Below are positions 5,070 to 37,513 of a stretch of DNA of 43,984 nucleotides, in pieces. How positions within the stretch are numbered: the stretch's first letter is position 1; every line of letters starts with the position of its first letter. The notes below the pieces were generated by a model. That model saw only the letters and a program-made list of their open reading frames with translations. It did not search any database and was not told the origin of the DNA. The stretch is from positions 1 to 43,984 of the forward strand of contig DHIZ01000169.1 in assembly GCA_002404055.1 (NCBI GenBank), in the 5' to 3' direction. Both the position numbers and the translations under genes were made by a program. This stretch comes from Chloroflexi bacterium UBA4733. GTDB taxonomy: Bacteria > Chloroflexota > UBA4733.

Positions 5070-6260
5070 TCAGGCCAGCGGGCGCAGCGTCACGCGCCGC
5101 CCTTCGGCGGCGGAAAGATAGGCGGCGTAGATCGCCTCCACCACTGCCTGGCCCAACCGGCCATCGGCCAGTGGCGGCCGGCCGGCGCGGATCGCTGCCG
5201 TGAAGTCCTGCATCTCGTCGCGGAAGCCATAGAGCCAGGCGGCATCAATCTCTGGAAAACTCCAGCCGGCGTTGGTGTGCGACTTCTCCTGCAGCGGCGC
5301 TCCGGCAAAGATGTCGCCGCTGGGCGCATAGACCTGGAACAGGGAGCTATGGCTGAGGTTGATATTGAAGCGCGCGCGTGCCGTCAGCAACTGCACGCCA
5401 TCTTCGATCCCGCCAAGCGCCAGGTCCGAGGCCAGACAGATGGCGTGGCTGCCGTCGGTGAAGGTCAGCGTGACCGCGCTCCAGTTCTCGACATCCTGCC
5501 AGCCGCTCACCAGGTAACCGGCGGCACCGCCGTCGTTCGCCAGGGTCGCCACCTCCGCCGAGACCGCCGCCACTTCGACCGGTCTGCCGTCCAGGCGCTC
5601 GCCCTCGGCCCGCTTCAGGTGCAACGCCAGGCCAATGGGGTGGCTGCCCAGGCGCAGCAGCGCGCCGCCTCCCGCCTCCCGCCAGCGCATGGCGTAGGCA
5701 GCGTGCGAGCCGCTATGGCACTCGCTGGCCCGAATCTCCAACAGCCGGGCGTCGCTCTGCTCCAGCAGTTCCTTTGCCCGTCGCACCACCGGGCTGTAGA
5801 CCAGGTTCTCGCCGTACCCGATCTGCACTCCGGCCTCCCTGGCGGCCTGCAGCAGGTCAGCGGCGCTCCGCATAGCCTCCGCCAGCATCATGCCGCGCGG
5901 CAGGTCGCCCACCCGCGTCTCCGGCGCAGCGTCCAGCGGTCCGAAGTAGCCGGTGAGCGGCTTCTCGATCAGCACGTGCCGCCCGGAGCGCAACGCCGCC
6001 AGGGCCAGCGGCGCGTGACTCCGGTTCGGCGTGCAGATATCGACGGCCTCCAGGTCGTCACGCGCCAGCAATGCGGCAGCATCCTTTACCACTTCGGGGA
6101 TGGCAAACCGTGCCGCCAGCGCCTCGGCGGAACTCCGCCGTCCGGCAGCGACGGCCACCACCTGCGCCCGCGGGCGCAAACACTGCGCATAAGCCTGACA
6201 ATGCGTGGCCGCCGCGAACCCAGCCCCCAGCAGCCCAATGCGAACCGGCTCGTCCGGCAT
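5070..6260 (-). CDS. Gfo/Idh/MocA family oxidoreductase
   Basis: About 396 residues. It has an N-terminal Rossmann domain for NAD(P) with IGLLGAGF at residues 8-15 and the family EKP motif at 99-101 (HVLIEKPLT), whose Lys is catalytic. A C-terminal alpha/beta substrate domain follows. Such enzymes oxidise or reduce sugars, inositols and related polyols. I chose the ATG at 6260 rather than the longer frame because AGGAGG lies about 9 bases upstream of it. It follows the SelA-like enzyme gene by 76 bases on the same strand, and the two are probably co-transcribed under the divergent FadR-type regulator. The sugar substrate cannot be assigned. Confidence 0.9.
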   Translation of the reverse strand: MPDEPVRIGLLGAGFAAATHCQAYAQCLRPRAQVVAVAAGRRSSAEALAARFAIPEVVKDAAALLARDDLEAVDICTPNRSHAPLALAALRSGRHVLIEKPLTGYFGPLDAAPETRVGDLPRGMMLAEAMRSAADLLQAAREAGVQIGYGENLVYSPVVRRAKELLEQSDARLLEIRASECHSGSHAAYAMRWREAGGGALLRLGSHPIGLALHLKRAEGERLDGRPVEVAAVSAEVATLANDGGAAGYLVSGWQDVENWSAVTLTFTDGSHAICLASDLALGGIEDGVQLLTARARFNINLSHSSLFQVYAPSGDIFAGAPLQEKSHTNAGWSFPEIDAAWLYGFRDEMQDFTAAIRAGRPPLADGRLGQAVVEAIYAAYLSAAEGRRVTLRPLA

Positions 6261-6336
6261 GTACCCTTGCCTCCTCATCCTGATCATGCATGTACTTGCT
6301 AGTCCACGCGGCCATTATGGCCTTTGTAGGCGCACC

Positions 6337-7539
6337 TCACCGCACTCCCCCCAACACCGCCCGCAGCCGGCTCACGAGCGGATCGACGTCCTCCTCCTGC
6401 AGGGCCATCGGGTTGATCACCAGCACCCCTTGCCGGGCACGGCCTTCGCCAACGGCAAGTGCCGGCGTGCCGTCCAGCAGACGGCGGATCACTTCAAACG
6501 CGGTGCAGCCAAGCGCAGCTTCATCCAATGTCAGTTGCAGGCGGGGAACCGGTCGGTTGGTTGGGCCGTCGAAGTCCGCCTGCACGTGTGGCAGTGTACC
6601 GATACCATCCAGCACCGCCTGCAGCAGCCTCTCCCAGCGGGTGCGTTCGGCAGCATGGTCGCGCTGCACGTAGCGGCGCAGGGCGACGACCAGCCCGGCG
6701 ATCTCCTCCTTGCCCACCTTGAAGCCCCGCCCGATCCCCTGGTGCGGCGGCCCTGCCAGCACTCCCGCCGCCCGATACTGGTCGCCAAAGCTCCACACTT
6801 CCGGGTGGACATCCATGTCCTGGTTCTGCAGCAGCACGGAGGCGATCAAGTCGCGCCGCCCGCAGAGGATGCCGCTGGCCTGTGGGCCTTGAATCGCCTT
6901 CCCACCGCTGAAACTCACCAGATCAGCCCCCGCGGTGATAAACCGGCGCAGATTCTCCGGCGGTGGCAGGGCGGCGGCGGCATCGACGATAACCGGCAGG
7001 CCATGCCGGTGGGCGATCCGGCAAAATTCTTCCAACGGCACGACCCCTTGCGCCTCGATCATTGCCCAGTACAACGCAGCGGTGCGTTCACCGATGGCGG
7101 CCTCGATCTGCCAGGCGTGCGTCCCCCCCGCACCCGGGTAGCCGAGGTAGCCGACCTCCACGAAGCGTCCGCCGGCCGCGCGCACCGCGTGGTCGTAGGC
7201 GTTGCGGTGGGCGCGCTGGACGACGATCTCGTTGGGCATACCCGTCGTGTCCGGCAGGCGGTCCATGCGGGCGACATCCAGGCCGGCCAGGCAGGCTGCC
7301 GTGGCGAGGGTGATCCCGGCTGCAGCGCCGGAGGTGACGTAGCCCGCTTCGGCGCCCGTCGCTGCGGCAATTTCCTGCCCGGCAGCCGCCTGCAGCTCCT
7401 CCATCCGCACGCACACACCGGCTGCCTCCGCCATCGCCTGCACCACCTCCGCCGGCAGCGGCCCGCCGCCGTAGCGCGTCATCAACCCGGCAGCGTTGAT
7501 GAGTGGACGGACAGCGAGCGTGTCATACACTCCGGTCAT
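6337..7539 (-). CDS. SelA/DgaE-like PLP-dependent enzyme (fold type I)
   Basis: 400 residues with the class V-like PLP fold of the SelA family. The Schiff-base Lys is K214 in SFSGGKAIQGPQ, and an Asp ahead of it (LPVIVDAAAA) would contact the cofactor. The length and the motif VTSGAAAGITLATAACLAG match the bacterial group that includes D-glucosaminate-6-phosphate ammonia-lyase (DgaE), rather than true selenocysteine synthase, which is longer and comes with selB/selC. A lyase acting on an amino sugar acid or hydroxy amino acid is the best guess. ATG at 7539 has an AAGGAG site. It is divergent from a FadR-type regulator only 33 bases away and precedes a Gfo/Idh oxidoreductase. Confidence 0.8.
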   Translation of the reverse strand: MTGVYDTLAVRPLINAAGLMTRYGGGPLPAEVVQAMAEAAGVCVRMEELQAAAGQEIAAATGAEAGYVTSGAAAGITLATAACLAGLDVARMDRLPDTTGMPNEIVVQRAHRNAYDHAVRAAGGRFVEVGYLGYPGAGGTHAWQIEAAIGERTAALYWAMIEAQGVVPLEEFCRIAHRHGLPVIVDAAAALPPPENLRRFITAGADLVSFSGGKAIQGPQASGILCGRRDLIASVLLQNQDMDVHPEVWSFGDQYRAAGVLAGPPHQGIGRGFKVGKEEIAGLVVALRRYVQRDHAAERTRWERLLQAVLDGIGTLPHVQADFDGPTNRPVPRLQLTLDEAALGCTAFEVIRRLLDGTPALAVGEGRARQGVLVINPMALQEEDVDPLVSRLRAVLGGVR

Positions 7540-7572
7540 TCAGCGTCTCCTTTCCAGGTGGTAGGATGCGGC

Positions 7573-8343
7573 ATGGTCATTTCGCCTGTTTCGGCAACGC
7601 CGCCGCAGTCCGCACCGCCTGCGGGAGGCGTCTCACGCATCGGTCGTCAGCGCCTGGGCGAACAAGTCGCCGATGCCTTGATCGAGGCGATCCTGGCAGC
7701 CGAGTACCCGCCCGGTCATTACTTACCATCCGAACAGGAATTGATCAAGCGCTTCGGCGTGAGTCGGACTGCCATCCGCGAGGCACTGCGGGTGCTGTCG
7801 GCCCGTGGCTTCGTGACGGTGGAGCATGGACGCGGCGCGCGCGTCACAGAGCAGCACCCGCAGGCGATTTCCGGCTTGCTGCAGTTTCAGTTGCGGCAAG
7901 GGCAGGGCAACCTGCATCACGTGCTGGAGGCGCGGCGCATGCTGGAAATGACGGCCGCCCCGCTGGCGGCCCGGCGCGCCGCTCCGGCAGATCTGGCCGC
8001 CATGGCTGAAGCCCTGGAAGCTATGGCCGATAACCCCAGCGCCAGTCAGTACATCGTTGCTGATCTGACCTTCCACCGAGCGATCGTTGGCGCGACCCAC
8101 AATCCGATTCTGGTGCTGTTGAACGATGCCATCGCCGACGTGCTGGCCAGCATGCGTGAGCATACCTACCGCCTGCCCGGCGCGGTCGCCCGCTCGCTGG
8201 AGGATCACCGCTGGGTCTTCGAGGCCATCGTGGCAGGCGACGCTGACCGCGTCCGGTTGCGCATGGCGGAAGTCCTCGACGAAGTCGAGCACGCTATCGA
8301 GCAGATCGAGCCGACCACCGACGACGAGCGGCCGGCTCACTGA
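7573..8343 (+). CDS. FadR-type GntR family transcriptional regulator
   Basis: 256 residues. The N-terminal winged helix-turn-helix (about 25-90) has the typical GntR run GHYLPSEQELIKRFGVSR followed by TAIREALRVLSARGFV and the wing HGRGARV. The C-terminal FCD effector domain (about 110-240) has the helical metal and ligand pocket pattern (EARRMLE, DLTFHRAI, DHRWVFEAI). Such regulators usually repress nearby catabolic genes until a small carboxylate or sugar acid binds. I chose the ATG at 7573, which has purine-rich GGTAGGA upstream and no supported coding sequence before it. The divergent SelA-like gene starts 33 bases away, so their promoters must overlap the opposite coding regions. Probable targets are genes at 5070-7539. 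Confidence 0.9.
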   Translation: MVISPVSATPPQSAPPAGGVSRIGRQRLGEQVADALIEAILAAEYPPGHYLPSEQELIKRFGVSRTAIREALRVLSARGFVTVEHGRGARVTEQHPQAISGLLQFQLRQGQGNLHHVLEARRMLEMTAAPLAARRAAPADLAAMAEALEAMADNPSASQYIVADLTFHRAIVGATHNPILVLLNDAIADVLASMREHTYRLPGAVARSLEDHRWVFEAIVAGDADRVRLRMAEVLDEVEHAIEQIEPTTDDERPAH

Positions 8344-8451: not shown

Positions 8452-9675
8452 TCATGCACACCAGGCAATCGCCAGGCGAGCCAGAATCCGCGCAGCATCG
8501 AGCAACTCCGAAATGGTCAAGAACTCCTCCGGCCCGTGGGCCCGAGCGAGGCTACCGGGACCGAAGATCGCCACCGGCAGGCCGCGGGCGGCAAAGTGCC
8601 GGGCATCACAGGTCGCCGGGAATGGTCCCATGCTGCTGCCCGGCTGCACGGCACGCGCCGCCTGCCACAGCAGTTGCAGCAGCCCATGGTCGGCTGGCGT
8701 ATGGGCGGCCTCTACGACGAACGGCACACTGGCCGCAGTATGCATGGGGCCAGTTGGACCGTCCCAGGAGCGCCCCGCCGCCGCGCGCACCTCCTCTTCT
8801 ACCCTGTCGTGGTAGCCCGGCGGGAAGCGCACAGTGGCTTCGATCCGGCAGGAGGCCGGGACGGTGAACAGTTCATCGCCCCCGCTGATGCGGGCCACGT
8901 TGATCACCGGCGCCGGATAGTCGGGGCGCCAGGGCATCGACCAGCCTTGCTGCAACCGTTCCAGGGCGATGACCACCTCGGCCGCCCGCACCACGGCATT
9001 GGCGTTGCTGCGCTGGGCGCCGTGGCCGGCGACGCCCGGTACATCGACGCGCAGGCCAAAAACGCCCTGGTGACCGTAGCAGACGCCGAGGTCAGTTGGT
9101 TCGAGCACGACCACGCCGTCGGCGGCGGGACCACGCCGACAGAGTTCCAGCGCGCCGTTACCGGTAGTCTCCTCTTCCACGACGCTCGCCACAACAACAT
9201 CGCCGCGCAGCGACACACCGATCGCCTGCACGGCAGCTATCGCCAGCGTTGCTGCCCACAATCCGCCTTTGGCGTCGGTAGCGCCGCGTCCATAGACGCG
9301 CTCGCCATCCACCTCGGCCGCCCAGGGGTCGTGACGCCAGTTCGCGCCGGCCGGTACGGTGTCGATATGGCTGACAAACAGCAGGCTCCGCCCGCCGCCG
9401 CTTCCCGAAAGAGTTGCCCGCACATTGGGGCGTTCAGCATAGCCGGTGTCACTCGGCAGATAGCCCGGCGTTGCTTGCAGTGCCGGCGCATCCACCCAGT
9501 GGAGCATCGCCGGCAGCCCCAGTTCCGCTAACTGCCGCGCGAACTGCTGCTGCGCCGCCCCTTCCTTGCCGGTCACGCTGGGAACCTGCACGAGACGGCG
9601 CAGCCCGTCCCGCGCCAGGGAGCGGCTTTTCCCCAGCCAGTGGTCCAGGCGGTCGGTGACCGGCGTGTCAGGCAT
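8452..9675 (-). CDS. M20 family metallopeptidase / amidohydrolase
   Basis: 407 residues, normal for the ArgE/DapE/carboxypeptidase G2 family. Seen: HxD metal ligands at 103-105 (SHIDTVP), the bridging Asp in GRGATDAKGG near 134, and the catalytic EEE at 167-169. The dimerisation domain interrupts the catalytic domain at about 205-310, and a late His occurs in LARAHGPEEF. Family members cleave N-acyl amino acids or dipeptides at a two-zinc centre in the cytoplasm. The ATG at 9675 overlaps the end of the upstream threonine-synthase-like gene by 8 bases, so it is the last gene of the operon. It converges with the FadR-type regulator gene. Substrate unknown. Confidence 0.9.
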   Translation of the reverse strand: MPDTPVTDRLDHWLGKSRSLARDGLRRLVQVPSVTGKEGAAQQQFARQLAELGLPAMLHWVDAPALQATPGYLPSDTGYAERPNVRATLSGSGGGRSLLFVSHIDTVPAGANWRHDPWAAEVDGERVYGRGATDAKGGLWAATLAIAAVQAIGVSLRGDVVVASVVEEETTGNGALELCRRGPAADGVVVLEPTDLGVCYGHQGVFGLRVDVPGVAGHGAQRSNANAVVRAAEVVIALERLQQGWSMPWRPDYPAPVINVARISGGDELFTVPASCRIEATVRFPPGYHDRVEEEVRAAAGRSWDGPTGPMHTAASVPFVVEAAHTPADHGLLQLLWQAARAVQPGSSMGPFPATCDARHFAARGLPVAIFGPGSLARAHGPEEFLTISELLDAARILARLAIAWCA

Positions 9676-10801
9676 TGCCCACGATCTTCAGCACCTGCGC
9701 GGCGTTGACCGGCGTCGGTGTGGCCAGGCTGGCGACCGGATCGAACTGCGGGTACTTGCTGCCCGCAGCCGTTAGCACTGCCACCACCGGGTGGGCGTGC
9801 CCTTCTTTCCCCAGCAGCCGAGTACCGACGACAGCGGCCGCCGCACCTTCCGGCGAAGTCAGGAGACCGTGCTCGCGCGCCAGCTTCCCCCGCATGGCCA
9901 GAATGTCGGCGTCACTCACGGCGATGGCGCTGCCCTGGGAGGCGTATACCGCGGCCAGCGCATCGTCGCTGCCGGTCACCATCTCGATGCCGCTGGCGAC
10001 GGTCTGCGCACCGGGCAGAACGTCAACCCGCTGTGCGCCGCGCCGCCAGGCTCGTACCAGCGGCGCCGCCCCGCGTGCCTGCACCGCGACGAGCCGCGGC
10101 GGTTGTGGTCCGTCGCGCAGGGCGAGCCAGAGGCCCAACAGCAGGTCGCCACTGCCCGTTGGAACTACCAGGGCGCCGGGCCCGCCGGCGATCTGACTCA
10201 GCAGTTCCCCCGCCAGTGAGGCGCAACCGGCAAGGTAATAGGGGCTGGCCCGTAGTGGCAGGGCGATCCGATTGAGAGGGAACCAGCCGCCGTTCTGCCA
10301 CAACTGCTCCTGCAGTCTACCCACCGCGCCACTTGTCCAGAGGGTGTCGTGATCGAGGTCGAGCGTGAGCACCTGCGCGCCATAAGCCCTGATGAGCGCC
10401 GCGGCCTGGCTGCTCATCGTGGGCAAGGCCAGCACCAGGCAGCGCAGCCCGAGGCCGGCTGCCGCCGCTGCCGCCGCAGCGCCGCCGTTACCGCAACTGT
10501 AGAGCGAGACGCCGCGCGCACCCATGGTCAGTGCCGCCGCCACCGCGGCCCCCATAGCGCGATCCTTGAACGAGCCAGTGGGGTTGCGCCCCTCATCTTT
10601 CAGGTACAGAAAGGCCGAAGCGCCAACCTGCAGTTGGTAGAGCGGCGTGTTGCCGGCATGCAAGGAGGAGACAGGTGTCGCGCCGTCGGTCCCGTCCAGT
10701 GCCAGTTGCCCGCCGCAGTTGGGGCAGGCGAATTGCCAGAGCGCCGGCAACCGCCGGTCGCAGTGCAGGCAGCGCAACCGGCCCCGATTTGGCTCGTTCA
10801 C
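9668..10801 (-). CDS. Threonine-synthase-like PLP enzyme with zinc ribbon (second copy)
   Basis: About 377 residues from GTG at 10801. It begins with a zinc ribbon (CLHC, then CPNC about 13 residues later) and continues into a fold-type II PLP domain. The Schiff-base Lys is K79 in NPTGSFKDRAM and the phosphate-binding loop is SCGNGGAAAAAAAAG. The family performs beta/gamma replacement or elimination on O-phosphohomoserine, serine or related compounds. An unrelated sequence (about 30 percent similar by eye) serves the same fold four genes upstream, so this is unlikely to be a recent duplicate. The start is uncertain: GTG at 10852 is an alternative, and a 9-bp hairpin lies between the two. It overlaps the M20 gene by 8 bases. 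Confidence 0.8.
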   Translation of the reverse strand: MNEPNRGRLRCLHCDRRLPALWQFACPNCGGQLALDGTDGATPVSSLHAGNTPLYQLQVGASAFLYLKDEGRNPTGSFKDRAMGAAVAAALTMGARGVSLYSCGNGGAAAAAAAAGLGLRCLVLALPTMSSQAAALIRAYGAQVLTLDLDHDTLWTSGAVGRLQEQLWQNGGWFPLNRIALPLRASPYYLAGCASLAGELLSQIAGGPGALVVPTGSGDLLLGLWLALRDGPQPPRLVAVQARGAAPLVRAWRRGAQRVDVLPGAQTVASGIEMVTGSDDALAAVYASQGSAIAVSDADILAMRGKLAREHGLLTSPEGAAAAVVGTRLLGKEGHAHPVVAVLTAAGSKYPQFDPVASLATPTPVNAAQVLKIVGNA

Positions 10802-10807
10802 CGTGTG

Positions 10808-10835
10808 GTCCGGTGCATCTGCTACAGCACCGGAC
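10808..10835 (-). promoter_or_regulatory. Intercistronic 9-bp hairpin before threonine-synthase-like gene
   Basis: GTCCGGTGC and GCACCGGAC form a perfect 9-bp stem around a 10-base loop. On the minus-strand mRNA it ends 6 bases before GTG 10801, where a ribosome binding site would be expected. It could limit translation of that gene, or mark the real start as the upstream GTG at 10852, in which case it is coding. No T-run follows, so it is not a simple terminator. Confidence 0.45.
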
Positions 10836-10976
10836 GAGTATGCACCTGGCACGGCCGGGCTATCGTGCCCATCGTAAACAACGTCTTTACTGGACCGGCG
10901 CTTTAGCTCGGCTCTCGCCGCAAAAATCCTGATATCCCCGGAAACACCCCGAATGCCATTGACGGAGATTGCCGAT

Positions 10977-11435
10977 CTAGCCACCCGACAACACTTCCAG
11001 TTCCAGCCGCATACCCGGCGCTGATCGCATCCGCCGGCAGACCTCCGCAAACTCCGCCAACCCGTGCTCGATGCGCGCAAACAGGCAGATCGGCACCGGC
11101 CCCCACGGCATGCTGGGAACCCCATCCCGGTCGTAGACCACCAGTACCTCCGAGATTGCCTGGCGGAGACCCTGCCAGAGGCCGCCCTCCAGGCAATAGA
11201 AGGCGACGTCACCGGGGAGCGCCCGTAAGGTCTGGTTGCTGGGAGGAAGGAGCAGGGGAGGGGCCAGATCGAGCGCGACTTCGCTGCCGGAGTAGATGGC
11301 ATGGTGGGCGAGGCCGGCGACAGGCAGGCGGCTGCGCAGGGCGGCGCAGAGCGACGGCGCTTCGTCGTCCAGAAAGCGCGCTCGTGCTTCCACGCCAGCA
11401 GAGGGGAAGCGCAACAACAGAGTAGTTGGCGACAC
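10977..11435 (-). CDS. DUF3830 family protein (cyclophilin-like fold)
   Basis: About 152 residues from GTG at 11435, with GAGGGG upstream and only 8 bases after the glycosidase stop. The sequence has the DUF3830 pattern: a strand LLLRFPSAGVEARARFLDDEAP, then CAALRSRLP, a central AHHAIYSGSEVALDL, and the late GDVAFYCLEGG and WGPVPICLFARI. Known members adopt a cyclophilin-like barrel and occur beside hydrolases and amino-acid catabolic genes, but no reaction is established. A longer reading upstream would run into the previous gene and gives an Arg/His-rich tail that I reject. Position inside the operon points to a role with the M20 and PLP enzymes. Confidence 0.8.
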   Translation of the reverse strand: MSPTTLLLRFPSAGVEARARFLDDEAPSLCAALRSRLPVAGLAHHAIYSGSEVALDLAPPLLLPPSNQTLRALPGDVAFYCLEGGLWQGLRQAISEVLVVYDRDGVPSMPWGPVPICLFARIEHGLAEFAEVCRRMRSAPGMRLELEVLSGG

Positions 11436-11443
11436 GGTGTTTA

Positions 11444-13603
11444 CTACCCCTCGTTCGACGTTGTGATGGGCCACGAAACTCGCACGACCTCGTAGGCGCC
11501 GAAATCCGGCAACTGTAGGGTGTACCGGTCGCCGTCGCGCGTCACAGGGATGGCGGCCTCGCCCCGCAGGGTGCAAGCCACCGGCGCCGCTGCGCCAACC
11601 CCGCCCGGTATCAGCAGTCGAGCGCCTTCCACCGGCAGCACAGCGCGGATTGGCCGCTCCAGGGCGCCACTGCGGTTGAGGAGATGCACGATCAGATCGG
11701 CGTTGACGGCGCGACGAACGAGCATCTGCACACCGCGCGGCGCGCCGTCCAGCCTAATGTCAGTCGCTGCCTCACCTTTTCCCTGATGACCGTCCGAAGC
11801 ATCTGCTGCCGACGCTGCGGGAAGCGCCGCCCGTGCCAGGAAGTCGAGCCACTCCGGGAAGCGTTGTGACCAGGCGAGCGCCCCGGCCAGCCCGGCAACG
11901 TAGGTGACCTCCCCGGCGCCGAAGCGGTGGCTGAAGGTGGCGCTGGGGGCATCCGCCTCCACGTGCAGCGGGAAGTACCGGCTCGGCAGCTTCTCGGCGT
12001 AGCGCGACGTCGGCACACCGCCAGCTGGCTGCGCGTGGAAGGCCCAGACCGGGGAGGGCAGCAGCGGTCGCTGCACGCCTGTCCAGTGCGGGTGGGAAAG
12101 CTCTGGGGCGATATAGTCGATGGCACGGGGGCCAACCACGCCGGCAGTCACACGGACGCCGAGCACGTCGTCCAGGCTGCCCACCGCCCGGAGCCGTCCC
12201 AGTTCGTCGGCGATTCCTGGCGCCCCGGTCGCCAGCAGCCGGCCCCCGCGGCGTACAAACTCGCGCAGGCCGTCGGCGGAAGCGGCGGAGAGGCAGGCCG
12301 CCATCGGCAGCACCAAACTGTCGTACCGACCGGCAGGCAGATCAGCCAGCGCACCGTCGTCGATCACGTCCACCGCTACCTGCGCCCGCACCAGCGCTTC
12401 GTAACAACCGGCAAACTCCTCCCAGCAGACGCGGTCCCAGGCGAAGCCGTCGGCTTCGCCCAGTTCGCGGTGGACACCGCCCCAATCGGTGGTAGCTTGC
12501 GGCCATACCACGGCGACGCGCGCTGCCGAGCGACTGCCGGCAAAGCAGTCGGCGTGGCGGCGATAGAAATGGAGCAGGTCGCTGATCGTGGCTTCCAGCG
12601 GCGGGTCGATAAAGCGCAGCCCTCCCATGATCTGCGGATTCGCGCCGGCGGCGATGGCCCCGGCGATCAGCAACTCCATCTCCACCGGCGTCAGCCCGTA
12701 GTAGTCCCAGGGCAGGTGTCGGAAGCAGCAATAGACCACAGTCGGCAACCGGCTGCCATCGGGCCGCTCTGCCTGGCGGTCCAGCATGAGCGCGCCGGCG
12801 CTGGTCAGCCAGAGCGGCACGAGCAGCGGCGGCGTGTTGTTGAACAGGTTGCCACGCTCGTTGCCCAGCAGATCAAGGTGCGGCGCGAGTACCCGCGTGC
12901 TGCGCCCGCCGCTCCAGTTCGCCAGGAGGCTGGCGTTATTCATGAAGAAGACCGCCCCCGGCCGCTCGGCGTGCAGCGCCTGACGCAACTCAGCCAGAAA
13001 GCGGGCCAGCGTCTGCTCCCGAAAGGCAGCAAAGCGCGGCCAGTCGGGATGCGCTCGTTCCGCCCAGGGCGGCAGATCGCGTCCCCACTGTGTACGAAAC
13101 AGCAACCGGCAGGCAGGGCAGTAGCACGTGCGCGGGAAGAGGGTCGGACCGTCGAGAAAGATGCCATCCAGCGGATAGCGTCGGGCCTGCTCGCGCAACT
13201 GTTGCGCCGCCCAACGCCCCCAGGGACTATTTGGACATGGTGCGTGCCCCTTGCCATAGCCCAGCACCGGCGGCACACCATGTTCGTCCACCTGCAGCCA
13301 GTCGGGATGCTGTTCCGCCTCCTCCGAGAGCACCCAGTGGACATTGGTATAGGTGACCAACCGCATCCCCCGGGCGTGCAACGCCGTCAGATAACGGTCG
13401 TACTCCTCCGCCATCCAGACGCCGCGCAAGAAGGTTCCTTCACCGCCGGCCAGGTCCGGTAGGGCCTGCTCGACCAGGGTGAAGCCCATGCCGTCCAGAC
13501 GCGCGGCCAGACCTTCCGGGGTCAACGCCCGCATCTCCTCCGGGGTGACCTGTACATCAGAAATAGTCTGGGCCTGCCGCCACCAGGGGGATGTGGACTC
13601 CAT
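11444..13603 (-). CDS. Glycoside hydrolase-like protein: TIM barrel plus GH42-type trimerisation domain
   Basis: About 719 residues. The N-terminal half looks like a TIM barrel of the hypothetical glycosidase type: residues GVWMAEEYDRYLTALHARGM and TYTNVHW lead to SPWGRWAAQQLREQ, LDGIFLDGPT, then a Cys cluster TCYCPACRLLF. Similar Cys motifs occur in alpha-L-fucosidase/GHL6-like relatives. From about residue 360 a flavodoxin-like beta-galactosidase trimerisation domain follows (VAVVWPQ, LREFVRRGGRLLATG). A beta-sandwich end comes last. No signal peptide, so it is cytoplasmic. ATG 13603 overlaps the upstream stop as TGATG with AAAGGAG before it. Likely acts on an imported oligosaccharide; linkage unknown. 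Confidence 0.75.
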   Translation of the reverse strand: MESTSPWWRQAQTISDVQVTPEEMRALTPEGLAARLDGMGFTLVEQALPDLAGGEGTFLRGVWMAEEYDRYLTALHARGMRLVTYTNVHWVLSEEAEQHPDWLQVDEHGVPPVLGYGKGHAPCPNSPWGRWAAQQLREQARRYPLDGIFLDGPTLFPRTCYCPACRLLFRTQWGRDLPPWAERAHPDWPRFAAFREQTLARFLAELRQALHAERPGAVFFMNNASLLANWSGGRSTRVLAPHLDLLGNERGNLFNNTPPLLVPLWLTSAGALMLDRQAERPDGSRLPTVVYCCFRHLPWDYYGLTPVEMELLIAGAIAAGANPQIMGGLRFIDPPLEATISDLLHFYRRHADCFAGSRSAARVAVVWPQATTDWGGVHRELGEADGFAWDRVCWEEFAGCYEALVRAQVAVDVIDDGALADLPAGRYDSLVLPMAACLSAASADGLREFVRRGGRLLATGAPGIADELGRLRAVGSLDDVLGVRVTAGVVGPRAIDYIAPELSHPHWTGVQRPLLPSPVWAFHAQPAGGVPTSRYAEKLPSRYFPLHVEADAPSATFSHRFGAGEVTYVAGLAGALAWSQRFPEWLDFLARAALPAASAADASDGHQGKGEAATDIRLDGAPRGVQMLVRRAVNADLIVHLLNRSGALERPIRAVLPVEGARLLIPGGVGAAAPVACTLRGEAAIPVTRDGDRYTLQLPDFGAYEVVRVSWPITTSNEG

Positions 13604-14775
13604 CACGAAGCTCCTTTTGCTCTTGCCCGGAGAGCCTGCCGTAGCGCCGGCCAGCGGCCGCCGGTGGCGGTGAGCAGGCAGACCGCCGTCTCCTCGCCGA
13701 TCGAGGTTGCCAGCCGTCGAGCGACGGCCAGCGGCGCCGCTGAGGCCGGGTCAACCAGCAGCCCACAGGAGGCCAGGAGGCTTGCCGCCGCCACGATCTC
13801 TTCGTCCTCCACGGCCACTGCCATTCCGCCTGATGCTCGCAGGGCCGCCAGCACGTGTTCACCGGACGATGGATCGCGGATGGAGAGGGCGATGGAGGAG
13901 ACGGCATCCAACACTGGCGGCTCGTCCAAACCGGCGGTAAAGGCGCGCACGACCGGGTCGGCGCCGGTGGCCTGGCAGGCCACCATGCGCGGCAGGCGTT
14001 GGATGACTCCTAGCTGCGCCAGGTCCAGAAAGCCCTGCCAGACGCCGGCGAGGCCGTCGCCGCCGCCGACGGGACAGAGCACCCAGCCGGGAGCCTCGCC
14101 GCCGCACTGACGGCAGAGTTCATAAGCGATGGTCTTGTAGCCCGTGATGCCGAACGGCGACGCCAGTGGCGCGAAGGAGGATGTGGTTGCCGGATACCAA
14201 CCCGCCCGGAGCAGCTCGTGCATGGCGGCGTCCCGCACTGCCGCCGGCAGCACCTCTACCCTCGCGCCGAGCGCTCGCATGTGGTCACACAGCTCGTCGG
14301 GCGCCTCCGGGTGGGCAAATACTGCGCAGGCCAGGCCGGCCAGGGCGCAGTAGGCGGCGGCGGCGATGCCGTGGTTGCCTGTCGAGGCGCAGAAGCAGCC
14401 CGGGCAGCCCAGCGCGCTCGCGTGTGCGACGGACACCGCCTGAAAGCGGTCCTTGTAAGAGTGGGTGGGATTGCTACCTTCATATTTGCAGCGCAACCCC
14501 GGCAACTGCAACTCCTCAGAGAGCCGTTCCAGGTGCAGGAGCGGGGTGTCGCTTTCGCCAAGCGTGGGGCGTGCCGTTCCCGACGGGCCCGGCAATAGCG
14601 CCTCGTAGCTCCAAACACCGCTGCCTGCAACGTGCCCCTCCAGGTCGGCGCGGGCACGCACGGCATCCAGTTCCAGGCGCACGGCGAGGTTGCCGCCACA
14701 ACGCCGGCAGACGTAGGGCAGCACATTCTCTTCGCGTGCGCCGCAGCGGCGGCAGTACAAGGTGAAGGCGGCCAT
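13603..14775 (-). CDS. Threonine-synthase-like PLP enzyme with zinc ribbon (first copy)
   Basis: 390 residues. It starts with a zinc ribbon (CRRC, then CRRCGG) and a short linker, then a fold-type II PLP domain with Schiff-base Lys K108 in NPTHSYKDRF and phosphate loop ASTGNHGIAAAAY. A glycine-rich PVGGGDGLAG loop and the STGNHG motif fit threonine synthase and its relatives (cysteate synthase, diaminopropionate-type lyases). ATG 14775 overlaps the solute-binding protein stop as TGATG, so the gene was positioned by that coupling rather than by the longer frame upstream. With a second family member in the same operon, housekeeping threonine synthesis is unlikely for both; a catabolic lyase is my inference. 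Confidence 0.85.
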   Translation of the reverse strand: MAAFTLYCRRCGAREENVLPYVCRRCGGNLAVRLELDAVRARADLEGHVAGSGVWSYEALLPGPSGTARPTLGESDTPLLHLERLSEELQLPGLRCKYEGSNPTHSYKDRFQAVSVAHASALGCPGCFCASTGNHGIAAAAYCALAGLACAVFAHPEAPDELCDHMRALGARVEVLPAAVRDAAMHELLRAGWYPATTSSFAPLASPFGITGYKTIAYELCRQCGGEAPGWVLCPVGGGDGLAGVWQGFLDLAQLGVIQRLPRMVACQATGADPVVRAFTAGLDEPPVLDAVSSIALSIRDPSSGEHVLAALRASGGMAVAVEDEEIVAAASLLASCGLLVDPASAAPLAVARRLATSIGEETAVCLLTATGGRWPALRQALRARAKGAS

Positions 14776-16316
14776 CAGCTCTTCAGGATGCTGTTCATTT
14801 GCTGCTGCGCCTGCTGGAGGGCCTGGCCGGCAGGGATCTTGTGCGCGAAAGTGTCCGTGATGATTGGCGTCCAGGCGCCCGTCAACTGGGTCAGGCGGAA
14901 GTAAGGGTAAGGGCCAACGGCCGGCAACTGCGCGATATCGAGCACACGCTGATTCTGCGGAATGCTGGCGACCGCCGCCTTCCATTGGGGGCTGGTGTAG
15001 ACGTCTTTGCGCGGACTGGGCAACGCGGCCACCGCCGACCGTTGCGCCTGCACCGTGGGACCCGAATAGAAGGCCATCCAGTTGAGCGCCAGGTCCTGGG
15101 CCTTGCTCTCCTTCGGCACGGAATCCATGTTGACGAAGATGTCGGTCGCCGGCCCTGCGCCGGCCGGCCCCTTCGGGAAGGGCATGAGGTCCCATTGCAG
15201 GGTCGGCGCCGCGGTGTGTACGTTGTTGATGAGGTACAGCCCCATCGGCATCATGGAGATATGGCCCTGATAGAAGTACTGCAAGTTCGTGACGCCCTTG
15301 GGGAGCGGACCGCTGGTGGCATAGCGATCCATGAGGTCTAGGGTGAACTGCAAAGCATCCACGCCGCGCGGCTGATCGAACTGCACCGACTTCAAGTCCG
15401 GCGCGTAGAAGGTCCCGCCCTGCGTGTACAGCCACTCGCAGAAGTATTCCAGAGAAGGCGTCGAGTCGAGGTAGCCGATGCGCGTCACACCGCTGCTATC
15501 CTTCTGGACGAGTTTGGCCGCGGTGTCGGCGAAGGTCTGCCAGCTCCAGGCGGAGGTCGTCTCCCAGGTCGGCGTAGCGCCGATTTCCTGAAAGTGCGCA
15601 ACGTTGTAGGCGATGCCGTAGCCGGAAGGGCCTTCCACCGGCGTGCCGAAGATCTTGCCGTCGGCCTGATTGTAGAACGCCGCCGCTGGAATGAACTGGT
15701 CCGCCGCGATGGACGGCGTCCTGGCAACCATGCTGCTGATGTCCAGCAGCGTCCCCTTATCCCAGAGGTCCCGCGCATAGGCGACGGACATGTGCAGCGC
15801 ATCCGGCGTGTCGTTGCCGGCCACGGCGGCGATGAACTTGTTGGGATAGTCGTCAATACCCGCCGCGGGGATGGTGACGATATCCAGGGCAACCTGAGGA
15901 TACTGCTGCGCCCAGGCCGCCCTGGCGTACTTGAACCAGGCAGCGAAGGTCGGATTGGAAACAGGATCCCACCAGTCCCAGTAGGTGAACGTCTGCGCCG
16001 TCGCCGACTTCACCACTGCTGCCGTCGTGGCCGTCGCCGTGGCTGCGGCCGTCGTACTGGTGGCCGCCGTGCCGGCGGCGCTGCTCGTCGTCGGCGCGGC
16101 GGCGGTTGTCGAGAGCGGAGCGACGGATGAGCTGGATGATGCGGGGGCAGACGCCACGGTCGGCGCCGCAGTGCTGCTCGTTGCCGACGACGCGACGGTG
16201 GCCGACGTAGTACCGCCGCAGGCCGCGCTCAGCAGCACAGCCACACCGCTGCCAACGACCATGCTGCTGGTGCGGAGGAAGGACCGACGCGTGGAGAGGA
16301 TAGCAACGCCTACCAT
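14775..16316 (-). CDS. Extracellular solute-binding protein (ABC type, sugar-like), Tat lipoprotein
   Basis: 513 residues. The N-terminus has a twin-arginine motif (STRRSFLR, RR at 10-11), a hydrophobic stretch and a lipobox ending at Cys33 (LLSAAC). It should therefore be exported folded and lipid-anchored. Residues 37-107 are almost only Ala/Ser/Thr/Val, an unusually long tether. The binding fold starts near 108 (TFTYWDWWDP) and resembles family 1 sugar-binding proteins. First gene of the operon, with its own promoter (16364-16392) and operator palindrome. GGAG precedes ATG 16316. No permease or ATPase gene follows; the next gene is a PLP enzyme. A paralogue with the same leader lies upstream (17717-19294). 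Confidence 0.9.
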   Translation of the reverse strand: MVGVAILSTRRSFLRTSSMVVGSGVAVLLSAACGGTTSATVASSATSSTAAPTVASAPASSSSSVAPLSTTAAAPTTSSAAGTAATSTTAAATATATTAAVVKSATAQTFTYWDWWDPVSNPTFAAWFKYARAAWAQQYPQVALDIVTIPAAGIDDYPNKFIAAVAGNDTPDALHMSVAYARDLWDKGTLLDISSMVARTPSIAADQFIPAAAFYNQADGKIFGTPVEGPSGYGIAYNVAHFQEIGATPTWETTSAWSWQTFADTAAKLVQKDSSGVTRIGYLDSTPSLEYFCEWLYTQGGTFYAPDLKSVQFDQPRGVDALQFTLDLMDRYATSGPLPKGVTNLQYFYQGHISMMPMGLYLINNVHTAAPTLQWDLMPFPKGPAGAGPATDIFVNMDSVPKESKAQDLALNWMAFYSGPTVQAQRSAVAALPSPRKDVYTSPQWKAAVASIPQNQRVLDIAQLPAVGPYPYFRLTQLTGAWTPIITDTFAHKIPAGQALQQAQQQMNSILKS

Positions 16317-16335
16317 GGACGGGTCTCCTCAGAAA

Positions 16336-16353
16336 ACCGCTGACTGGAGCGGT
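16336..16353 (-). promoter_or_regulatory. 5'-UTR hairpin of solute-binding gene, conserved in paralogue
   Basis: ACCGCT and AGCGGT pair as a 6-bp stem with a 6-base loop, just ahead of the ribosome binding site. On the mRNA the stem is followed by TTTT. The same stem occurs at 19314-19331 before the paralogous gene with a different loop, and the closing pair there is G-U instead of A-U, so pairing is kept while sequence drifts. Confidence 0.5.
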
Positions 16354-16357
16354 AAGT

Positions 16358-16374
16358 CATAGCATCATACCATA
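16358..16374. promoter_or_regulatory. Operator-like palindrome overlapping -10 box
   Basis: CATAGCATCATACCATA is an imperfect version of the 17-bp perfect palindrome at 19336-19352. In both places the centre coincides with the -10 box of a solute-binding gene promoter. A repressor bound here would block RNA polymerase. Which regulator binds is unknown; the only regulator gene in the window is the FadR-type protein at 7573. Confidence 0.5.
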
Positions 16375-16392
16375 ACCTGCTAGGTCAGGCAA
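16364..16392 (-). promoter_or_regulatory. Sigma70-type promoter for the 8452-16316 operon
   Basis: On the minus strand TTGCCT (16392-16387), 17 bases, then TATGAT (16369-16364). The -35 box lies within the last codons of the upstream acyltransferase gene. The predicted transcription start is near 16357, about 40 bases before ATG 16316. Confidence 0.6.
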
Positions 16393-17704
16393 GTGTGGCT
16401 GTCTGCCGGGGGCCACGCGAGCTGCCATCACGGGAACCGGAAGGCGTACGGTACACCTGCTCTCCCCATTGCACGTCGTCGGTAAGTAAGAAGGAAGCGC
16501 CGGCATGCAAATGGCCGCCGATGAGCAAGTGGTCGATGATGGCGCGCCGTAGTGTGGTGTCGCGCGGCGCTTGACGCAGCTCCGTTGGTACTTTCCCGAA
16601 GACGCGCTCCAGCGTGACTCGATTATCGCTACCACCAGGTAGGAGGTATTGCTCCTGCATGAAACGCACGATGTTGGAGGTGGAAGGCAGCAACTGCTCG
16701 AACTGGTTATCCAGCAGCCAGGAACTGCAAGCGAAGGCAAGGAAAGGCGTATCCGGCGAGTAGGTGGGGAAGAAGCGGAGCGCTTCGCGGAAGGACTCGC
16801 CGCAAAGATCAAAATCCATCGGCCTCCCCGCGGGAATATGGATCTGCAGCACCGGATCACCGCGGGATAACACCAACTGCCACTCCTCGAGCTTGAGTTC
16901 GACCGGTTGCTGGACAGCTCTGCCCAACGGGAGGATCGGCATGCCGCGGACAAGGTGGTCGGTTTGCTCGAATTGCGCCATCCAGTCGCTCTCCGCTGCC
17001 GGTAGCCCTCCGGCGCCGAACAACTGGCCATCGGCTCGGAAGCGCACCCCTGCCTCCGCCAGCGCGAGGACGGCGCCGCTCCGATGGCGGTACACGCGCA
17101 CACGCGAGCGGAAGGGGCCGGGCTGGAACTGTAGACGTACTAGGTGGTAACGCGCGCCGGTCAAGGTGTAGGCGACGTAGGGCAGGCTGCGCGGCGCAAG
17201 CCCCCAGGCGCCATGTTCTGCGCGGTCAGCCTCCAGCCAACGCAGAACGTCGGCGCGTGTGTCGTGGGCAACCTTTCGTGGAATGCCGCGCTGCCGGTAG
17301 ATGCGACCCAACTCCGGCAAGTTCGCCAGAGCCACCAGCATATAGAACAGGTCGCCTTCGGGGCCAAGGGCGCTTACCAATGACGGCCAGTTCTGCATCT
17401 GCGTCGGTACCGCGTGCGCTCCGTATAGACTACGCACGCCATGCCACGCGATTGCGCGTAGAGCGGGGTCGGCAGCGACGCGTCGCGTCAACTTGCCCAG
17501 GGCGCTCCGCACCTCTTCCGGGAACTCCAACTCAGCACAGGCCGAGGCGACAAACTGGGGTTCGAGAAACGGCAGATCAGATGACGGCAAGGTACACCAC
17601 GACTCGGGCCAGCCGACAGCGAACACTGGAGCCGAGTCTTCCAGACCGAACTGCGCCACAATCTCCTGTAAGGTGGGACGGCAAGGAACCTGGGCAGCGA
17701 TCAT
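16385..17704 (-). CDS. Acyltransferase-like protein with tandem GNAT fold (NAT_N/GNAT_C type)
   Basis: 439 residues. The N-terminal part (about 15-160) and C-terminal part (about 200-425) match the tandem acyltransferase group with NAT_N and GNAT_C domains. Seen are the conserved LQIHIPAGRPMDFDLCGES, FFPTYSPDTPFLAFACSSWLLDN and LPSTSNIVRFM. Members occur across Gram-positive and Chloroflexota-like bacteria beside sugar catabolic genes; the acyl donor and acceptor are not known. ATG 17704 follows the broken solute-binding gene by 12 bases, so the two form a unit. The operon promoter for the next genes sits inside its last codons. Function beyond acyl transfer is not assignable. Confidence 0.7.
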   Translation of the reverse strand: MIAAQVPCRPTLQEIVAQFGLEDSAPVFAVGWPESWCTLPSSDLPFLEPQFVASACAELEFPEEVRSALGKLTRRVAADPALRAIAWHGVRSLYGAHAVPTQMQNWPSLVSALGPEGDLFYMLVALANLPELGRIYRQRGIPRKVAHDTRADVLRWLEADRAEHGAWGLAPRSLPYVAYTLTGARYHLVRLQFQPGPFRSRVRVYRHRSGAVLALAEAGVRFRADGQLFGAGGLPAAESDWMAQFEQTDHLVRGMPILPLGRAVQQPVELKLEEWQLVLSRGDPVLQIHIPAGRPMDFDLCGESFREALRFFPTYSPDTPFLAFACSSWLLDNQFEQLLPSTSNIVRFMQEQYLLPGGSDNRVTLERVFGKVPTELRQAPRDTTLRRAIIDHLLIGGHLHAGASFLLTDDVQWGEQVYRTPSGSRDGSSRGPRQTATLA

Positions 17705-17716
17705 CCCCAGGATCGA

Positions 17717-19294
17717 TCAAGCATTCGCCTGGGCGAGGATCGTCTTCACCTTGTCTGCCGCCTGAGTGATCGCGGTTGCTACGCCAAGTTGTCCCTTCAA
17801 CACGGCGTTGAAGATCGGGGGCAAATCCTTGAACAACTGCGCCATCTCGACGAATGGATATGCCTGCACACCGGGAAGGGCGGCGATACTCGCCACGCGG
17901 TCCAGCAACGGATACTGCTGCACCGCACTCTTCCACGCCGCGGTCTGATAGACATCTTTGCGGGGGCTCACGAAGCCGATCTTTGTTGGCAGTTGCGCCT
18001 GCACCTCTGCACCGGCGTAGTAGCTGATCTACGCCCAGGAAGCATCTTGGTCCTTGGCGTCCTTGGGCACAACCTCCATGTCGTACTCCAGTGCCGTGGC
18101 CGGCCCTTTGCCCTCAGGCCCTCTAGGGAAGGGCATGAGGTCGTAGTGGAGGAGTGGCGCCTGTTTGGCTGTTGAGGGAATCAAGTACATACCGAACGTC
18201 ATCATGGAGGCCTGTTCGGCCACAAACGCCTTGTAGGGAGTCGTCCCGGTAGGGAGGGTCGCTGAGACGCGATTCTTATTCAACATGTCGCTCATGAACT
18301 GGAGTACCGCCGCTCCCCGGCCGTCATCGAATGCCACCCCGGTGTAATCCGGATTATAGAATGTGCCGCCGTCGCTGTACAGCCAATCGCAAAAGTATTC
18401 CACCGATCCCGCCGCGCCAAGCCAGCCCGATTGGGTGATCGTATCACCGGAGCGCTTGGTGAGTTTGGCGGCCGCGTCGGCAAACTCCTGCCACGTCCAC
18501 GATGCCGTCGCCGCCGGTGCCAGTCCAACCTCCTTGAAGTGATCGAGATTGTAAGCGAGGGCGTAGCCCGCAGGACCCTCGGTGGCCACGCCGAAGGTAT
18601 GGCCGGCCTGTTGCGTGTAGGTCTTGGCCGCCGCGAAAAACTGGTCCGGGGCGACCGCTGGTGTGCGCGCCACGTACGGCGAGAGATCGGCGAGCACGCC
18701 ATGCTTCCATGTGTCCCACGCAAAGACGATGTCGAGGTGAAGGACATCGGGAGGGACACCGCCAGCGACAGCGGCTAACAGCTTCGTCTCGTAGTCGCCG
18801 TCGTCGGCGACGAAGGAGATTTGGAGCGACTGCCCTGGGTGCTTGCTTTCGTAATCGGGTTTGACGTACTGCCACCAACTGGCGAAACTCGGGTTACTCG
18901 AATTCCACCAGGTCCAGTACTGCAGCACCTTCGCTCCAACACTCGGCTGCGCGTTGGCAACGGACGAAGTCGTCGTCGTCGATGCCAGGGTGGTCGACGT
19001 CGTTGGGGCGGCGCTTGACGTCGTGGTAACGGTGGGCACAGCACTGCTGGTCACGGTCGATGACGCAGCGACCGAGGTCGCGTTGGAAGTCGCCGTCAGC
19101 GCAGCGCTTGACGTCACGGTGGCCAACGGCGTAGCACTACCGGTCGCGGCCGCGCTACTGGTTGCCGAGGACACTGCCGTTGACGCCGTGGCGCCGCAGG
19201 CGGAACTGAGCAATACCGCGACACCACTGCCGATGACGGCGCCGCTGGCCCGAAGGAAGGACCGGCGAGTGGAGAGGACATCAACACCGACCAT
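17717..19294 (-). pseudogene. Solute-binding protein (paralogue of 14775) interrupted by an in-frame TAG
   Basis: 526 codons in one frame, with a TAG at codon 422 (18031-18029). The flanking sequence fits the paralogue at 14775-16316: here ASWA-stop-ISYYAG, there LALNWMAFYSG. The stop falls exactly on a conserved Trp, so one TGG-to-TAG change explains it. Upstream are a Tat motif (RR 10-11), lipobox Cys33 and a very long Ala/Ser/Thr/Val linker (35-118). The last 95 codons after the stop remain well formed (SPRKDVYQTAAWKSAV), suggesting recent loss, suppression or a sequence error. Its promoter, operator and 5' hairpin are all intact. An acyltransferase gene follows 12 bases later. Confidence 0.85.
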
Positions 19295-19313
19295 GGACGG
19301 GTCTCCTCACATA

Positions 19314-19331
19314 ACCGCTCACACGAGCGGC
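19314..19331 (-). promoter_or_regulatory. 5'-UTR hairpin, paralogous to that at 16336-16353
   Basis: On the mRNA GCCGCT pairs with AGCGGT around the loop CGTGTG. It lies at the extreme 5' end of the predicted transcript and 20 bases before the start codon. The loop differs from the paralogue; the stem is retained. Confidence 0.5.
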
Positions 19332-19335
19332 AAGT

Positions 19336-19352
19336 CATAGTATCATACTATG
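19336..19352. promoter_or_regulatory. Perfect 17-bp operator-like palindrome
   Basis: CATAGTATCATACTATG is a perfect 8+1+8 palindrome whose centre lies on the -10 box (TATGAT). It is related to the site at 16358-16374. The position fits a repressor operator. Confidence 0.6.
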
Positions 19353-19370
19353 AATTGCCGCATCAGTCAA
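19342..19370 (-). promoter_or_regulatory. Sigma70-type promoter of the interrupted solute-binding gene
   Basis: TTGACT (19370-19365), a 17-base spacer, TATGAT (19347-19342). This is close to consensus and is the strongest promoter of the set. Transcription start near 19335, about 41 bases before ATG 19294. Confidence 0.7.
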
Positions 19371-19415
19371 GAGTCGATGACGCTGAACCTGTTCAGCCCT
19401 CAGGCCCCTGCCCCC

Positions 19416-37461: not shown

Positions 37462-37513
37462 GCGCTGTGGTCCTTTGCTACATGCTGTGCCGCACTCAGA
37501 CACGCGGTACCCC

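Follow-up and report, generated by a model that had tools for sequence, protein, structure and literature searches.

Two threonine synthase-like enzymes and a DUF3830 protein in a six-gene unit of a Chloroflexi bacterium: a possible catabolic operon for amino-acid conjugates

In the ehu-eutABCDE system for the utilisation of hydroxyectoine and ectoine, an uptake protein, a GntR-type regulator, a threonine-dehydratase-like enzyme dependent on pyridoxal phosphate (PLP) and a deacetylase are brought together in one unit (PMC5924519). The locus described here belongs to Chloroflexi bacterium UBA4733 and lies in a stretch of 43,984 nucleotides (contig DHIZ01000169.1 of assembly GCA_002404055.1), the whole of which is referred to as the window. 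It holds a unit of six genes, two of which code for different proteins that resemble threonine synthase (ThrC) and one for a protein of the family DUF3830. Judging from their sequences, probably neither of the two PLP enzymes is a housekeeping threonine synthase, and the unit is read here as an operon for the catabolism of an amino acid in acylated, peptidyl or glycosylated form, a reading to which we give about an even chance. A described catabolic cluster with threonine-synthase-like enzymes was sought in the literature and none was found, with a limited coverage of subscription papers and hence no proof of absence.

The six genes are encoded on the reverse strand and run from 16316 to 8452, as established from the sequence, the open reading frames and Pfam. 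The first gene, SBP1 (14775-16316), codes for a solute-binding lipoprotein of 513 residues. It is followed by ThrC-like 2 (13603-14775, 390 residues), by a GHL6/GH151-like glycosidase candidate with a barrel and a GH42M-type domain (11444-13603, 719 residues; GHL6 in the following), by the DUF3830 gene (10977-11435, 152 residues), by ThrC-like 1 (9668-10801, 377 residues counted from the GTG at 10801) and by an ArgE/DapE-like M20 metallo-hydrolase (8452-9675). The original prediction of a six-gene operon with tight couplings is borne out by these coordinates and by the junctions read in the sequence. SBP1 and ThrC-like 2 are joined by TGATG, with the stop at 14777-14775 and the ATG at 14775, and ThrC-like 2 and GHL6 by another TGATG, with the stop at 13605-13603 and the ATG at 13603, although an alternative GTG at 13606 is possible. 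The GHL6 stop, which ends at 11444, is separated by 8 nucleotides from the DUF3830 GTG at 11435, while ThrC-like 1 and M20 overlap by 8 bases (9668-9675). The sole loose junction is found between DUF3830, ending at 10977, and ThrC-like 1, where a start at GTG 10801 or at GTG 10852 leaves a gap of 175 or 124 nucleotides. The Pfam scan was performed with ThrC-like 2 shortened by its first 21 residues and with provisional starts for the other genes; both ThrC-like proteins and M20 were scanned against NCBIfam again with the final starts, with unchanged outcome.

The threonine synthase-like enzymes

Both ThrC-like proteins are zinc-ribbon enzymes of PLP fold-type II, with a CxxC...CxxC ribbon at the N-terminus, a PALP domain (182.6 and 214.7 bits, Pfam cut-off 35) and an intact PLP-lysine motif, SFKDR in ThrC-like 1 and SYKDR in ThrC-like 2. 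All of these features are shared with ThrC, whose structures are also the best PDB sequence matches of both proteins. Likewise, both score best in NCBIfam with a threonine synthase model, and relatives of both are labelled 'threonine synthase' by a source. One of the two could, from this, be the threonine synthase of the organism relocated into the operon, all the more as a separate ThrC could be looked for only in the nearest genome compared (G031) and not in the source genome itself. Nonetheless, this is extremely unlikely. Both proteins miss the curated cut-offs of TIGR00260 (82.9 bits for ThrC-like 1 and 122.8 for ThrC-like 2, against 167.1) and of PRK08197 (170.6 and 231.6, against 303). 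In ThrC of T. thermophilus, numbered from its sequence, the stretch NSVNPHR contains N154, S155 and R160, and the first asparagine of GNAGN is N188, four residues which we take to bind phosphohomoserine, a role for which a literature search gave no useful paper. The corresponding stretches are LPLRASPYYLAGCAS and GSGDL in ThrC-like 1 and APLASPFGITGYKT and GGGDG in ThrC-like 2, and none of the four residues is present in either protein: position 160 is Y in ThrC-like 1 and G in ThrC-like 2, position 188 is S and G, respectively, and positions 154 and 155 are gaps or other residues.

The same conclusion is reached from a maximum-likelihood tree built from a choice of 66 rows, 50 of them taken from 238 listed relatives, excluding P0017 and P0137 (the window's own copies), and the rest being window, PDB and locus rows. 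The true ThrC clade (14 rows, support 100/100) includes the solved ThrCs (1uim, 6cgq) and the ThrC of G031, which keeps all four substrate-site residues, and excludes both proteins of the window; ThrC-like 1 is placed in a clade of eight rows (100/96) and ThrC-like 2 in a family of 25 rows (100/98). For this reason, and on the cut-offs and residues given above, a housekeeping ThrC in the operon was rejected. The original prediction had argued that two such enzymes in one unit could not both be housekeeping and had proposed a tree as the check; the argument holds, and goes further, for neither looks so and neither groups with true ThrC. That one PLP gene had recently been duplicated in tandem was also rejected: across 382 aligned columns the two proteins have 33.5% identity, and the tree puts them in different clades. 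Of the 119 relatives of ThrC-like 1 in one alignment, 51 have the complete set of four substrate-site residues; for the relatives of ThrC-like 2 the figure is 0 of 119. The changed motifs are common to the near relatives of both, and the two proteins therefore look, from sequence comparison, like members of established subfamilies rather than decayed copies.

The models of other enzymes of this kind were not matched any better. EutB (TIGR02991, cut-off 413.35) scores 31.4 bits for ThrC-like 1 and 38.0 for ThrC-like 2, and for ThrC-like 2 diaminopropionate ammonia-lyase (NF006058, cut-off 276) scores 33.2 and cysteate synthase (NF053679, cut-off 600) 31.9, with neither of the latter two among the matches listed for ThrC-like 1 (25 of 32 families). 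The curated equivalog cut-offs by which a reaction could be named are missed by every enzyme of the unit, which speaks against any firm assignment of a route. More generally, many proteins called threonine synthase lack its substrate-site residues, and several of them adjoin peptidases and amidases. With such large groups under one name, annotation by automatic means could be misleading, and a group of PLP reactions still awaits assignment.

The neighbourhoods of ThrC-like 2 relatives were studied in 400 genomes drawn from the phylum of G001, a Thermomicrobiales metagenome-assembled genome which carries locus L003. This phylum is taken here as the Chloroflexota of GTDB; the NCBI 2026 dump places Thermomicrobiales in Thermomicrobiota. 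A search with ThrC-like 2 at 1e-45 matched 145 of the 400 genomes, a figure that is not a family count, as two of eight tree-placed rows (L118 and L123) fell in other clades. Eighteen match regions were retrieved and eight put into the tree; six fell in the ThrC-like 2 family, which with L003 makes seven members (from G001, G119, G321, G039, G022, G258 and G003), the neighbours of which were read in part. Six of the seven have a gene for a peptidase or an amidohydrolase within about 5 kb, whereas none was found among the few neighbours tested for the G003 gene (L119). The hydrolases near ThrC-like 2 relatives are of the GGT type (L003, L107), of the M24 creatinase/prolidase type (L114, L116 and, together with a creatininase, L108) and of the M81 type (L111). 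Locus L111 carries its ThrC-like gene with an M81 (MlrC-type) gene and a gene of an oxidase binding flavin adenine dinucleotide (FAD), an arrangement that is repeated in several genomes; L110, L112, L113 and L115 are alike by gene sizes only, the families having been read for L111.

The genome G031 belongs to the same draw and is the nearest one compared on the basis of an AAA/FtsH-like protein (40380-42212, named by eye), which is 91% identical over 610 residues, the next best by score having 55%; the order and the class of G031 were represented by three genomes each. In G031, which may be incomplete, there is no DUF3830 match, no GHL6 at 1e-30 and no relative of ThrC-like 2 at 1e-45.

The DUF3830 protein and the conservation of the gene set

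The DUF3830 protein (PF12903, 76.4 bits, cut-off 26) has a cyclophilin-like fold. Nearest to it is a member of its own family, the uncharacterised Arthrobacter protein 3kop, which is 25% identical to the window protein and whose entry names no function. After 3kop, the nearest solved folds are those of the Pictet-Spenglerases KslB and McbB, which are of the cucumopine synthase type and with which the DUF3830 protein shares a cyclophilin-like domain of that subtype. The identity is 17-20%, and the DUF3830 protein is a single domain of 152 residues that lacks the second, helical bundle domain of the KslB/McbB type, whose chains have about 275-315 residues. No paper naming the family was found in a literature search that left most subscription papers outside its coverage, and a search for cucumopine synthase together with cyclophilin gave nothing useful. 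The fold comparison thus provides a first testable idea for the family, namely chemistry on an amino acid and a carbonyl compound.

This fold also gives ground for reading the unit as biosynthetic, with a PLP-dependent beta-replacement, a reaction carried out by many enzymes of the ThrC-like fold type, the product of which DUF3830 would condense with a carbonyl compound to an opine-like or alkaloid compound that would then be glycosylated or acylated; the GNAT-type acyltransferase gene found upstream would suit such an end. We regard this as very unlikely, as the solute-binding protein, the two hydrolases in the unit, the FCD regulator nearby and the hydrolytic neighbourhoods of the relatives point to uptake and breakdown rather than to biosynthesis. 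A related proposal in the catabolic direction, unlikely too though slightly less so, is that DUF3830 is a small amino-acid/carbonyl enzyme of this fold working on cyclic or imine adducts between an amino acid and a sugar or keto acid, which it would open or re-form, passing the freed amino acid to ThrC-like 1; the latter would then be a zinc-ribbon PLP lyase of a new class. If true, the operon would be a route for the breakdown of glycated or opine-like amino-acid conjugates.

DUF3830 is found in 59 of the 400 genomes with profile A1 at 1e-3, many of these matches being weak, and in 22 of 188 genomes from the phylum of G002 at the Pfam cut-off. Its context was evaluated in 43 loci: 6 initial ones, 17 further regions, another 19 that cover 21 of 28 places in the phylum of G002, and one plasmid (L125), with the duplicate L060 and also L126 excluded. 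The neighbours were counted by tblastn at 1e-10, the query for some counts being drawn from one of those loci. The most frequent are genes for 2-hydroxyacid dehydrogenases (10 loci), Asp/Glu-racemase-like proteins (9), amidases, FCD regulators and peptide-type solute-binding proteins (8 each), aldo-keto reductases and class III aminotransferases (7 each), GDH-like proteins (4), and M24 peptidases and amidohydrolases (3 each), with single cases of GGT, M19, a class V PLP enzyme and an FAD oxidoreductase. On a Deinococcus plasmid, DUF3830 stands in a row with an FAD oxidoreductase, a class V PLP enzyme and three genes for aminopeptidase P, one of which is in the opposite orientation. In a recurrent cluster (L154-L160, from the phylum of G002, and L051), DUF3830 lies near an amidase and an Asp/Glu-racemase-like gene, in most cases together with a 2-hydroxyacid dehydrogenase and a class III aminotransferase. 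Relatives of DUF3830 and of the ThrC-like proteins are thus seen to adjoin peptidases, amidases and transporters, and those of DUF3830 and ThrC-like 2 look as if they occupy neighbourhoods of amino-acid or peptide catabolism.

Within the set, DUF3830 and ThrC-like 1 seem to form a smaller conserved module in close metagenomic relatives. Ten relatives of the window DUF3830 (P0002-P0011) are 63-84% identical across 93% or more of its length, and the five nearest relatives of ThrC-like 1 (P0018-P0022) are 55-61% identical. For three of these five, the size of the longest contig listed is the same as that of a DUF3830 match (191,043, 2,265 and 2,532 bases), and P0005 and P0022 are apparently on one contig of 191,043 bases; sizes of 2,130 (P0021) and 2,131 (P0009) differ by one base and were not counted as shared. 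Size serves as a contig identifier in the case of P0160 and G119:C22: both are on 44,394 bases, and the tree shows their proteins to be the same. The evidence for a shared contig is strong in the 191,043-base case and suggestive in the others. In L053, a divergent DUF3830 relative without the SGSE and YDRD motifs ends 4 bases upstream of what may be the ATG of a ThrC-like gene belonging to a third subfamily.

Several observations weigh against a single conserved route. The original prediction had proposed a search for the co-occurrence of DUF3830, M20 and ThrC-like genes, and this was not conserved: ThrC-like genes are present in 2 of the 43 loci and M20 in 3, with both in no locus. A ThrC-like gene as constant partner of all DUF3830 was accordingly rejected, and so was a DgaE-like gene, as GHL6, DgaE-like and M81 genes were found near DUF3830 in 0 of the 43. 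The full six-gene set was not found among the loci read, nor were GHL6 and M20 tied in them to DUF3830 or ThrC-like genes. The 43 loci were chosen from the stronger matches and cover 4 to 20 kb each, and six near-identical arrangements among them (L044-L049) give five of the eight peptide-type solute-binding proteins and six of the seven aldo-keto reductases. The G001 protein of L003 has a long branch and an unsure place in the tree, the identity of contigs was deduced indirectly, from equal sizes, and the six genes of the unit include no permease.

These observations bear on the possibility that two modules were joined only in this lineage and form no single six-step pathway: SBP1, ThrC-like 2 and GHL6 for import and sugar removal, and DUF3830, ThrC-like 1 and M20 for amino-acid catabolism. 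The apparent recurrence of DUF3830 with ThrC-like 1 alone is in line with this, as is the scarcity of GHL6, for which 1e-30 yields weak relatives (31% and 28% identity) in 2 of the 400 genomes. On the other hand, the gap of only 8 nucleotides between GHL6 and DUF3830 spans the supposed border, while the loose junction falls inside the second module. A relative of ThrC-like 2 (P0138) and DUF3830 P0009 are, moreover, both listed with contigs of 2,131 bases, which would tie together genes from the two supposed modules; if these are one contig, it has no room for a glycosidase in between, which counts against the six-gene route as well. Taken together, a joining of two modules is unlikely, and the catabolic operon is the reading retained here.

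Hydrolases, leader sequences and flanking genes

The glycosidase candidate matches GHL6 (45.7 bits, cut-off 35) and Glyco_hydro_42M (41.2, cut-off 25.8) in Pfam, and no export signal was seen on it by eye. Its best PDB match is the GH151 alpha-L-fucosidase 6tvk, which is weak (37.8 bits; 30.7 in the barrel and 5.0 in a second stretch). Both proteins have the stretch DGIFLD...RTCYC..C in the barrel, whereas the acid/base residue lies beyond the aligned part, and any fucosidase specificity is putative. In a study of GH151, the nucleophile is reported as Asp D154 and the acid/base as Glu E235 (PMC10154630). With an inferred numbering offset, the Asp of DGIFLD is the likely counterpart of D154. 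The M20 protein scores 116.2 bits (Pfam cut-off 24.6) and is closest to ArgE/DapE deacylases, with TIGR01910 at 203.9, below its cut-off of 217.6. H103, D105, D134, E168/E169, E192 and H380 are present in it, presumably as the active-site residues.

SBP1 has no Pfam match of its own, and its N-terminus bears RRSFLR and a lipobox-like sequence, which we take to be a twin-arginine-like lipoprotein signal. It is 44% identical over 429 residues to a paralogue, SBP2 (17717-19294, reverse strand), which matches SBP_bac_1 (PF01547) and starts 3 kb upstream of SBP1. SBP2 has an in-frame stop near 18029-18031, after which recognisable solute-binding protein sequence continues in frame, and would be either a pseudogene or a sequence error. 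A promoter-like sequence and a candidate operator are present ahead of the unit, as claimed, and are repeated before SBP2. Upstream of SBP1, the promoter-like TTGCCT-N17-TATGAT is found at 16364-16392 on the reverse strand and the inverted repeat ACCGC-N8-GCGGT, a candidate operator or leader element, at 16336-16353. The SBP2 leader carries TTGACT-N17-TATGAT (consensus TTGmCT) and the repeat with one mismatch (19314-19331), at the same distances to the gene. Indeed, the two leaders (16313-16420 and 19291-19400) are closely alike in promoter spacing, inverted repeat and a GAGGAG stretch, pointing to a possible shared control of the two units. Promoter-like sites number 4 in 15.4 kb, against a mean of 1.6 in shuffled sequence, and the argument therefore rests on conservation before the paralogues and not on the count. 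The repeat with up to one mismatch was found 9 times against 5.2 expected, not above chance, so that it was rejected as a signal by number, and only its matching position before two paralogous genes counts.

Between SBP1 and SBP2 lies the NAT_N/GNAT_C acyltransferase gene (16385-17704, reverse strand). On the other side, a GntR/FCD regulator gene (7558-8343, forward strand, start uncertain, by family scans) is convergent with the operon and is a candidate for its regulator. Divergent from it is a gene for a DgaE/SelA-like fold-type I PLP enzyme (6337-7539, reverse strand), possibly a further gene of the pathway, which scores 232 bits with TIGR01437 for DgaE-type lyases, below the cut-off of 385.3, and a Gfo/Idh gene was recognised by family scans at 5070-6287 on the reverse strand. 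Further along the window, between 21633 and 37503, there are a further solute-binding protein gene by Pfam (34216-35790), two that are similar by eye (21633-23237 and 35929-37503), a heparinase-like gene, a DegT aminotransferase, a ceramidase-like gene and an M55 D-aminopeptidase domain.

Proposed route and comparison with known systems

In the proposed route, SBP1 would capture an amino-acid conjugate outside the cell, and the protecting groups would be stripped inside, a sugar by GHL6 and an acyl, carbamoyl or peptidyl group by M20. DUF3830, as a stand-alone cyclophilin-like domain, may act on the amino-acid part, perhaps in a cyclic or imine form, and the two ThrC-like enzymes would then act on unphosphorylated amino acids by elimination or replacement, with either ammonia plus a keto acid or a modified amino acid as products. 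The catabolic direction, the order of the steps, all substrates and a control by the GntR/FCD protein are inferred parts of the proposal. Of the catabolic route put forward in the original prediction, the general character is supported by the neighbourhoods of ThrC-like 2 and DUF3830 relatives, while a conserved six-gene route was not retained. Its suggestion of a glycosylated or N-acylated hydroxy-amino acid as substrate stays conjectural, as no result separates the glycosylated from the N-acylated form.

Compared with the ehu-eutABCDE unit, the EutB cut-off is missed by both ThrC-like proteins, and the six genes include, by Pfam, neither an M24 ectoine hydrolase nor an aminotransferase; a hydroxyectoine cluster was rejected on that score and on these missing genes. 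Nonetheless, the two systems are alike in outline, sharing an uptake protein, a GntR-type regulator, a PLP enzyme of the threonine-dehydratase-like kind and a deacetylase-type hydrolase (PMC5924519).

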